Assembly (NCBI RefSeq): GCF_013031355.1
Contig: NZ_WPZO01000004.1
Coordinates: 248,001-312,000, forward strand
From: Ruegeria arenilitoris
GTDB taxonomy: Bacteria > Pseudomonadota > Alphaproteobacteria > Rhodobacterales > Rhodobacteraceae
Length of the DNA: 64,000 nucleotides
Reading direction: 5' to 3'
The notes under the pieces were generated by a model. The model was not told the origin of the DNA. It ran no database searches and saw only the letters and a list, made by a program, of their open reading frames with translations. The translations under genes were made by a program, and so were the position numbers. Positions 44,889 to 46,217 of the stretch are shown here, in pieces (positions within the stretch are counted from its first letter, which is position 1; every line of letters starts with the position of its first letter).

Positions 44889-45533
44889 ATGCAACGCGCT
44901 TACATCCCCGGCATTCTTGCCATGGCCGCCATTGTTGTGGCCTCGAACATCCTGGTTCAGTTCCTGATCTTTGACGGGTTGCTGACATGGGGTGCCTTCA
45001 CCTATCCGCTGGCCTTTCTGGTCACCGACATCATGAACCGTGTCTATGGTGTGGGTCCGGCCCGCAAGGTCGTGTTCGCCGGTTTTGTCACCGGTATCAT
45101 CTGCTCGTTGATCGGCAGTCAGATCATGCTACAGGGCGATGGCTTTACATATGCCGCTGTGCCGCTGCGGATTGCCGTGGCCTCGGGCACCGCTTTCCTG
45201 ATCGCGCAGCTGACCGACGTCACCGTGTTCAATTCACTGCGGGGTGGCCGCTGGTGGCGCGCGCCGCTGGTCTCGACCCTGATCGGCTCGGCGCTGGATA
45301 CCGCGCTGTTCTTCACTATCGCGTTTTCGGCCTCGGTCACCTTCTTCGGTGCCAATGCGGATGCCGCGATCAACTGGGCGTGGGAGCCCGTGCCCTTCAT
45401 GCTGTCCGGTCCGATGGCGCCGCTTTGGGTGACGTTGGCATTCGCTGACTGGCTGGTGAAACTGTCGCTGGCGCTGATCGCGTTGATCCCGTTCAAAGTG
45501 ATCGTTGCGCGCCTGACCGCACAGCCTGCGTAA
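44889..45533 (+). CDS. yhhQ: Queuosine precursor transporter (YhhQ/VUT family)
   Basis: A 214-residue inner-membrane protein with six helices. ASNILVQFLIFDGLLTWGAFTYPLAFLVTDIMNRVYG is the VUT signature, and 'LTDVTVFNSLRGGRWWRAP' follows. Members import preQ0/preQ1 for queuosine modification of tRNA. Start at 44889 is chosen because the upstream 20 codons lack family similarity and a signal. I looked for a preQ1 riboswitch in the leader (44798-44888) and found none. Confidence 0.9.
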   Translation: MQRAYIPGILAMAAIVVASNILVQFLIFDGLLTWGAFTYPLAFLVTDIMNRVYGVGPARKVVFAGFVTGIICSLIGSQIMLQGDGFTYAAVPLRIAVASGTAFLIAQLTDVTVFNSLRGGRWWRAPLVSTLIGSALDTALFFTIAFSASVTFFGANADAAINWAWEPVPFMLSGPMAPLWVTLAFADWLVKLSLALIALIPFKVIVARLTAQPA

Positions 45534-45608
45534 AAAAGTGCTTTGAGAATGGCGCATCTTGTGTCAGGCTTAAAGTTAACCGCAACAGATAGAAAAGGAG
45601 GTGATCCA

Positions 45609-45665
45609 GTGTCGAGAAAGAGATTGGAGAGAGGTGTCGGAACAACCGGGGGGATCGCCTGTTAA
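45609..45665 (+). CDS. 18-residue peptide behind the extended Shine-Dalgarno
   Basis: GTG start at 45609 to TAA at 45663, encoding MSRKRLERGVGTTGGIAC (basic, no domain). The spacing from GGAGG to GTG is 7 nt, ideal. Given the extreme ribosome-binding site it is probably translated, either as a small protein or as a leader peptide. Alternatively the SD region serves only to bind 30S subunits. I found no longer frame in any phase here. Confidence 0.5.
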   Translation: MSRKRLERGVGTTGGIAC

Positions 45666-45738
45666 GGCAGCCCTTGGCGGAGCGTTCGCTCCGGCTGGTC
45701 GATTGATCTAACCGACCCGACCTCCTTATACTTTCGAA

Positions 45739-45766
45739 GGGCCGTCCCGCCGGGGCGGCCCTTTTT
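45739..45766 (+). terminator. Rho-independent terminator upstream of arfB
   Basis: GGGCCG-T-CCC pairs with GGG-CGGCCC (one bulged T, 4-nt loop), followed by five T residues at 45762-45766. It ends the anti-16S RNA element and lies 32 nt before the arfB ATG, so arfB transcription must either read through it or start within or after it. Confidence 0.9.
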
Positions 45767-45797
45767 GTTTCTGCCCGTGCCGGATAAGGTCCACCCC

Positions 45798-46217
45798 ATG
45801 TTGCGCATTACCGACGATATCGCCCTGCAAGATTGGGAAATGACCGAGAGCTTTGTTCGCTCGTCCGGTCCCGGCGGGCAGAATGTGAACAAGGTCTCGA
45901 CCGCGGTTGAACTGCGGTTTGAGGCGGCGCGCTCACCGTCTTTGCCGGACCCGGTCAAGAACCGCCTGAAACGGCTGGCCGGGCGGCGCTGGACCAAGGA
46001 TGGCGCGATCATCATCCAGTGTGAAGAGACCCGCAGCCAGGCCCGCAACCGCGAGATTGCCCGTGCCCGTCTGGCCGAACTGATCGCCCGCGCGCTGGTC
46101 AAACCCAAGCGGCGGATTGCGACAAAACCCACCTATGGCTCGGTCAAGCGGCGGCTGGCGTCGAAAAAGGCGCGCTCGGACGTGAAGGCGCTGCGCGGTA
46201 AGGTCTCGGAAGATTGA
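45798..46217 (+). CDS. arfB: Alternative ribosome-rescue factor ArfB (YaeJ), peptidyl-tRNA hydrolase
   Basis: A 139-residue class I release-factor-like hydrolase that frees ribosomes stalled at mRNA ends. It carries the GGQ catalytic motif in RSSGPGGQNVNKVSTAVELRF (about residues 24-28) and a basic C-terminal tail (KPKRRIATKPTYGSVKRRLASKKARSDVKALRG) that enters the empty mRNA channel. It lacks stop-codon recognition domains, as expected. Directly downstream of a terminator-ending RNA with a full anti-16S sequence. SmpB, of the parallel tmRNA rescue route, is 3 kb downstream. Confidence 0.94.
   Translation: MLRITDDIALQDWEMTESFVRSSGPGGQNVNKVSTAVELRFEAARSPSLPDPVKNRLKRLAGRRWTKDGAIIIQCEETRSQARNREIARARLAELIARALVKPKRRIATKPTYGSVKRRLASKKARSDVKALRGKVSED

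Follow-up and report, generated by a model that had tools for sequence, protein, structure and literature searches.

A small RNA gene with a maximal Shine-Dalgarno sequence and a probably translated 18-codon frame lies between yhhQ and arfB in Ruegeria and has relatives across the Alphaproteobacteria

Why would a bacterium place a ribosome-binding site complementary to the entire tail of its 16S rRNA in front of a frame of 18 codons, and end the transcript shortly before arfB, the gene of a ribosome-rescue hydrolase? The question is raised by a stretch of 64,000 nucleotides of Ruegeria arenilitoris DNA (here called the window), in which positions 45594-45766 hold 16 nt complementary to the 16S tail, a frame of 18 codons that starts with GTG, an anti-Shine-Dalgarno (anti-SD) sequence that can mask the Shine-Dalgarno (SD) sequence, and a strong terminator ahead of arfB. 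A sequence-only reading of the window had described these parts and proposed that they form a ribosome-titrating sRNA, an ultra-strong short-peptide gene, or an attenuator through which arfB senses ribosome availability. The SD, frame, hairpins, anti-SD and terminator are all present where that reading placed them, with the SD starting at 45594, one A later than claimed. The features and neighbours, all on the + strand, are the following.

44889..45533, + strand: neighbour yhhQ/Vut_1, queuosine-precursor transporter, outside the RNA (TIGR00697 above cut-off; Vut_1)
45543..45548, + strand: -35-like hexamer TTGAGA of the element's own promoter (window sequence; TTGAC motif in relatives)
45565..45570, + strand: -10-like hexamer CAGGCT, 16 nt 3' of the -35 hexamer (window sequence; CAnnCT motif in relatives)
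45594..45609, + strand: Shine-Dalgarno sequence AAAGGAGGTGATCCAG, complementary to the 16S 3' tail (window sequence and relatives)
45609..45665, + strand: 18-codon ORF, (M)SRKRLERGVGTTGGIAC (GTG 45609-45611, 17 further codons, TAA 45663-45665)
45636..45640, + strand: 5' strand of P1, GUCGG, pairing with CCGAC at 45712-45716 (helix 2 of the covariance alignment)
45646..45650, + strand: 5' strand of P2, CCGGG, pairing with UCCGG at 45690-45694 (helix 3 of the covariance alignment)
45664..45675, + strand: hairpin AAGG-CAGC-CCUU overlapping the stop codon (helix 5, 94.0% paired)
45712..45716, + strand: 3' strand of P1, CCGAC (covariance alignment)
45720..45727, + strand: anti-SD ACCTCCTT / ACCUCCUU, pairing with the SD of the same RNA when the full-length element is folded (MFE fold, pairing probabilities)
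45737..45766, + strand: intrinsic terminator with U-tract (stem 45737-45763, T-run 45762-45766; MFE fold)
45798..46217, + strand: neighbour arfB, ribosome-rescue hydrolase, outside the RNA (ATG at 45798; NF006718; RF-1)

The tail of the 16S rRNA, which we take to read ..GGCUGGAUCACCUCCUUU, is complementary to the whole SD block, and from the position of the promoter the 5' end of the RNA would be expected at about 45577-45579. The genome contains the 15-mer AAGGAGGTGATCCAG a single time; because the search gave no match on the strand of the 16S gene, the 16S gene itself seems to be absent from the assembly. The identity of arfB rests on NCBIfam NF006718, with 191.7 bits against a cut-off of 100. 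The region 45585-45775 has a minimum free energy (MFE) of -91.1 kcal/mol, compared with a mean of -68.3 for shuffled sequences (z -4.70; 0 of 200 shuffles as low). In the MFE fold AAGGAGGU pairs with ACCUCCUU and the terminator hairpin is separate, so that the SD helix and the terminator stand side by side.

Is the element conserved? In 34 of 37 Ruegeria genomes, its own included, DNA matches cover most of the element, with 88 to 97% identity in the others. The three exceptions (G016, G024 and G030, with only a terminator-like match in G024) also yield no element with the covariance model at E<=1. They keep yhhQ and arfB (loci L359, L360 and L361), 64, 38 and 59 nt apart; everything from the promoter through the anti-SD is gone, and a terminator-like hairpin remains in two of the three. 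Either the element is dispensable in these genomes or it has moved and diverged there. A Ruegeria profile matches 44 of 80 arfB loci from named genomes. The covariance model R1 was built from an alignment of 38 sequences, all of Rhodobacterales, with 20 consensus pairs, 11 of them with compensatory changes. At E<=0.01 it matches 222 of 248 Rhodobacteraceae genomes (247 genera), and two of these have two matches each. Three genomes that R1 missed in this large search (G424, G443 and G526) are found, at E 1.1e-4 to 6.8e-7, once fewer genomes are searched. In a further one (G337), which has no R1 match, the interval from yhhQ to arfB contains a promoter, GAAAGGAGGTG-CCT-ATG with a short frame, then CACCTCC and a terminator. 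Judged by these matches, the Rhodobacteraceae branch appears to be near-universal in its family.

The predicted structure is supported by covariation. In 100 matches, 95.2% of the cells are paired and 351 two-sided changes compare with 97.5 +/- 16.9 after shuffling (0 of 500 shuffles as high), and the score of 0.498 compares with at most 0.136 when partners are slid, although the alignment was fitted to the model and all covariation figures lean its way. P1 has 97.0% of its cells paired, with two-sided changes in 3 of 5 pairs, and P2 has 93.4%, with two-sided changes in all 5. For the analyses that follow we read 130 family loci (30 + 100), the better-scoring among the matches listed for R1; one (L237) could not be parsed, which leaves 129 readable loci, referred to below as the better-scoring family loci.

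The neighbours of these loci bear on the role of arfB. The gene follows the element on the same strand in 111 of the 129 better-scoring family loci; in 123, yhhQ lies upstream in the same orientation, and both are present in 105. At two loci the element and arfB are separated, with yhhQ still adjacent to the element: by a gene resembling drug/metabolite exporters (below curated cut-offs) in L066, and by other sequence in L050. No arfB match was found in the DNA read at 18 of the 129 loci, 17 of which have at least 1.49 kb downstream. Among 60 class-wide loci, arfB lies within the 1.5-kb flanks of two, both from Rhodobacteraceae; the flanking ORFs were chosen mechanically in this survey, and the result we use is the absence of arfB and yhhQ matches. 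In one locus a 4.5S SRP RNA gene (L119:1306-1402, - strand) seems to follow the element on the same strand, at a distance of about 100 nt.

These data weigh on the idea that arfB senses the supply of ribosomes because read-through of the terminator depends on whether the short frame is translated. The frequent presence of arfB downstream speaks for such an attenuator, as do the about 30 nt between the terminator and arfB in the window, which leave little room for a separate arfB promoter. However, no antiterminator was seen in the MFE fold or by eye, yhhQ is the more constant neighbour, arfB is missing from some family loci and from all but two of the class-wide loci, as described above, and the three Ruegeria genomes without the element have lost the cassette and kept yhhQ and arfB close together. 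We therefore disfavour the attenuator proposed by the sequence-only reading and regard it as very unlikely, the least likely of the explanations considered here.

The element has the marks of a transcription unit of its own. TTGAC, mostly 50 to 55 nt 5' of GGAGG, is found in the upstream regions of 93 of the 129 better-scoring family loci (9.0 in shuffled sequence), and CAnnCT follows TTGACA by 16 nt, with frequencies of 0.87 for the A and 0.94 for the T in 68 anchorable sequences. A terminator-like hairpin is present in 127 of the 129 better-scoring family loci, where it begins a median 139 nt after the SD, and in 38 of 39 other elements. Terminator scores of at least 8 were reached by 33 of 40 sampled family sequences and 36 of 39 others, and by 0 of 40 and 0 of 39 of their shuffled counterparts. 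In L039, L077 and L084 the DnaA-box-like 9-mer TTATCCACA upstream of the SD overlaps the promoter.

The SD block is the most conspicuous part of the RNA. The claimed 16-nt complementarity to the 16S rRNA is correct for the window; in relatives, the core alone, AAAGGAGGTG, is near-invariant (AAAGGAGGT in 127 of the 129 better-scoring family loci), and a few relatives carry other cores, such as AGAGGAGGTG. The ATCC extension is frequent but not absolute, the better-scoring family loci reading TGATCCA in 76 cases, TGGTCCA in 33 and other letters in 20. The full string from SD to start, AAAGGAGGTGATCCNRTG, occurs in 44 of 289 Alphaproteobacteria genomes, once in each, and its letter-reversed control in none. 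Among 249 Pseudomonadota genomes the same string is found in 35, made up of 35 of 67 Alphaproteobacteria and 0 of 182 others. When the pattern is relaxed so that two letters after GGTG may vary, it is present in 71 of 387 genomes, at two places in three of them. By hand count, 61 of the 74 places read ATC, 11 GTC and 2 ACC, and the prevalence of ATC therefore suggests that the 16S-complementary extension itself is favoured. G048, G1010 and G1017 each have two distinct relaxed-SD places, possibly duplicated elements.

The frame that follows this block is exactly 18 codons long in 126 of the 129 better-scoring family loci and 17, 24 and 25 codons in the remaining three, and starts with GTG in 125 and TTG in 4; two arfB loci have ATG instead of GTG, a shorter spacer and frames of 13 codons. 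The 126 frames of 18 codons end with TGA (57), TAG (44) or TAA (25), and never with TGG, of which independent purines would predict about 20 (arithmetic from the counts, with kinship ignored). We considered whether the hairpin alone explains the stop codon and rejected this, since its purines pair with UU and would allow TGG. Because start and length are kept and the stop is always one of the three stop codons, the 18-codon frame is probably translated.

The peptide itself is weakly constrained, with a pN/pS of 0.63 over codons 2-12 that rises to 1.01 over codons 13-18. Selection thus acts on start, length and stop more than on the product. Codon 7 is GAG in 125 and codon 12 ACA in 126 of the 126 frames, and the fixed third bases indicate a constraint at the level of the RNA. 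The sequence-only reading had proposed an ultra-strong short-peptide gene; the part on translation is supported by the constant length and the kept stops, and the part on a conserved peptide is not. A small mRNA for a functional micropeptide would be consistent with the kept start and stop and with codon 2, which is Ser in 123 of the 126 frames with a free third base. It fits poorly with codons 13-18, which vary as if unconstrained, with the fixed third bases of codons 7 and 12, and with the peptides of other families, which differ from one another, and we consider this explanation quite unlikely.

Three of the 18 codons at 45609-45662 of the window are AGA. Across 36 long ORFs of the window AGA accounts for 0.14% of codons; among the 18-codon frames of the family its share is 8.6%, an excess that may only reflect an unpaired purine-rich stretch. 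We dismissed a rare-codon brake as a general feature, since the f160 and Bradyrhizobium-like frames inspected (see below) contain no AGA and the trait is specific to the family.

Is the SD masked by the anti-SD throughout? In the better-scoring family loci the mean probability that the SD is paired is 0.96, compared with 0.70 for shuffled bodies; 97 of the 129 exceed 95% of their shuffles, and in 119 the main partner of the SD lies 115 to 139 nt downstream. In 39 elements from outside the family, masking is not above chance: the mean probability is 0.68, compared with 0.71 after shuffling, and 4 of the 39 exceed 95% of their shuffles. The self-masking switch, if real, is therefore a trait of the Rhodobacteraceae and not of the class. 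An anti-SD-like CTGGATCxTCGCCTC noticed by eye in the frames of the MSHCH group had suggested class-wide masking, an idea that we dropped when the comparison with shuffled sequences lent it no support. The GGAG of codons 6-7 is almost invariant and the rest of its possible pairing with ACCUCC varies; one idea is that this internal GGAG competes with the SD for ACCUCC. The sequence-only reading had named lack of conservation of the SD/anti-SD pairing or of the ORF in relatives, together with absence of a transcript, as evidence against its proposal; the check on conservation did not refute it.

A second RNA feature is the hairpin motif RRGCARNYY, present in 127 of the 129 better-scoring family loci, in 36 of 37 f160 elements, in 8 of 26 elements from elsewhere and in none of the 13 CC2171-like ones, with shuffled means of 3.4, 0.9, 0.7 and 0.3, respectively. 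For the stop-codon hairpin of the window, the motif is placed about 65 to 70 nt from the start of GGAGG. Overall it stands about 60 to 70 nt after the SD, overlapping the stop codon in Rhodobacteraceae and lying inside the frame in f160. Because its location relative to the frame differs, it is an RNA feature that joins these branches. From the class-wide masking and hairpin-motif tests we left out L141 (Rhodobacteraceae) and L159 (a 57-codon frame), and kept L148 (39 codons).

Could the element instead be a base-pairing or dual-function sRNA, which uses, for example, ACCUCC or the loop of the CARN hairpin against the leaders of mRNAs, with the frame as a second or protective function? Its own promoter motif, the terminator with a U-tract and the conserved hairpin loop agree with this, and on the comparative evidence the frame appears translated, as a dual-function sRNA requires. 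On the other hand, in Rhodobacteraceae ACCUCC is for the most part tied up in the helix with the RNA's own SD, masking does not extend to the class, and the most widely shared sequence is a ribosome-binding site and not a seed. We consider such an sRNA rather unlikely.

How far does the element reach beyond the Rhodobacteraceae? At the gathering score, Rfam has no match at the element; its only match in the window is a cobalamin riboswitch elsewhere (RF00174, 135.5 bits, 786-986, - strand). At E<=5, RF01867 (CC2171) matches with 38.0 bits against a gathering score of 75, with an E-value of 7.2e-07 and over positions 1-159 of the 159 of the model. Other matches below threshold, among them suhB (24 bits) and rli32 (20.8), were taken as chance. 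Eight of 16 arfB loci, 11 of which hold the element, also align end to end to RF01867, at 30 to 40 bits. RF01867 matches 39 of 190 Alphaproteobacteria genomes at E<=0.001, 7 of them above the cut-off, and among 14 control genomes it matches Caulobacter vibrioides only. Remote kin across the Alphaproteobacteria, CC2171 included, share the arrangement CAAC..GAAAGGAGGTGATCC-start, a short frame and a terminator. In the 41 class elements parsed, the frames have 18 to 39 codons, apart from one of 57 that is probably another gene (L159). The family f160, probably Rhizobiaceae, has the strict form in 59 of 121 genomes, and 37 of its elements have frames of 20 to 26 codons ending with TGA (21), TAA (10) or TAG (6). 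Five probable Bradyrhizobium genomes have a 14-codon frame ending with TAG (3), TAA or TGA. The peptides differ from family to family. An element variant may also exist in Hyphomonas, where GAAAGGAGGTGATTCATGTCGAGTGAG lies on the minus strand about 950 nt before arfB (L088).

CC2171, which was reportedly first described by Landt in 2008, shares with the Ruegeria element an identical AAGGAGGUGAUCCAGUGUC block, the end-to-end alignment to the model, the terminal hairpin and a similar length. However, its long-range closing helix CAUUGUC/GACAAUG, located 5' of the terminator, is not formed in Ruegeria, where the letters differ and the alignment carries a mismatch mark; the Ruegeria element closes with SD/ACCUCC and GUCGG/CCGAC instead. 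The frames of the relatives near CC2171 encode 21 to 27 amino acids, mostly starting with MSHCH, whereas that of Ruegeria encodes 18 and starts with MSR. No single model spans the branches, and we infer from the common block and layout, and for some branches also from the hairpin, that all are homologous. The Rhodobacteraceae element appears, by this comparison of sequences, to be a branch of an alphaproteobacterial RNA family of which CC2171 is the only Rfam entry that we met. What has been catalogued as a narrow sRNA of Caulobacter appears to mark the edge of a family that spans the class, and it is probably translated.

For one relative a transcript has been published: Mesorhizobium MH_s33, annotated as RF01867, is given as a 215-nt transcript, apparently from RNA-seq (PMC5596092). 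Rfam 15 places CC2171 among the families that gain one more covarying pair (PMC11701678). As a point against translation, Schrader 2014 reports most Caulobacter ncRNA regions as untranslated; two earlier ncRNAs are reported there to be translated after all (PMC4117421). The literature that we searched contained no account of the element as translated or class-wide, which may be in print elsewhere.

The safest statement is that the element is a free-standing translated small RNA. At the level of sequence, the comparisons demonstrate its conservation, its structure, the constraint on start, stop and length, the promoter and terminator motifs, a mostly single-copy state and, outside the family, independence from arfB. 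The putative ribosome-titrating sRNA of the sequence-only reading would fit an anatomy with its own promoter and terminator motifs and a maximal SD. We give an even chance to the fuller reading that this free-standing translated small RNA works through ribosome occupancy and possibly gauges free 30S subunits. Occupancy by ribosomes, rather than the peptide, would be the job of the element; we think of it as the working state because the most widely shared part is the ribosome landing site, whereas the peptide drifts. The element may thereby gauge or buffer free 30S. A perfect complement of the 16S tail joined to a frame whose peptide is free raises the question of whether occupation by ribosomes can itself be the function of a bacterial RNA.

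We hypothesize that the gene is about 190 nt long, has a sigma-70-like promoter and an intrinsic terminator of its own, and would yield a small RNA that begins with a landing pad for ribosomes. This pad could pair with the 16S tail over its entire length, and the very short frame comes after it. In the free RNA of Rhodobacteraceae, the SD would be bound by the RNA's own ACCUCC and the stop hairpin would be closed. A 30S subunit or a translating ribosome would take the SD, open P1/P2 and the stop hairpin, and free the 3' half. Ribosome-bound and ribosome-free RNA would form in proportion to free 30S. In this way the RNA could report ribosome availability or buffer it, probably because its 3' half would become accessible to putative partners. 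A more far-reaching version, which we regard as unlikely, would be a class-wide gauge of free ribosomes that is read as the ratio of occupied to free RNA, with the freed anti-SD half feeding back on translation in Rhodobacteraceae. If such a gauge existed, the conserved part of a mostly once-per-genome RNA would be a 30S-binding site of the greatest possible strength, and the mini-frame behind it would be expendable.

Small RNAs and short frames known from other Alphaproteobacteria resemble the element in part. Sinorhizobium SEP1 has 23 amino acids and a pI of 4.18, is conserved in Rhizobiaceae, and has the highest translation efficiency of 54 new sORFs (PMC10117765). Its length is that of 15 of the 37 f160 frames, whose pI values range from 4.05 to 11.71. 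SEP1 may be the Rhizobiaceae version of the element, a comparison made by description and not by sequence, and as such it counts in favour of the micropeptide. The rnTrpL RNA, an sRNA derived from the Sinorhizobium trp attenuator, is likewise a small RNA with a translated, very short frame (14 amino acids) and shows that translated sRNAs are known, a point for the base-pairing sRNA; it is leaderless and tied to trpE, whereas our element has a maximal SD (PMC10117765). Unlike rnTrpL as described there, the element has no constant downstream gene outside the Rhodobacteraceae and no run of codons for one amino acid. A further likeness is found in the sRNAs of the RSs0680a/RFMSmelA075 type, also named CcsR. 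They are alphaproteobacterial sRNAs with an anti-SD, described as CCUCCUCCC in several exposed hairpin loops (PMC3927594). Unlike these RNAs, the element has a single ACCUCC (ACCUCCUU), which is paired to its own SD in the MFE fold.
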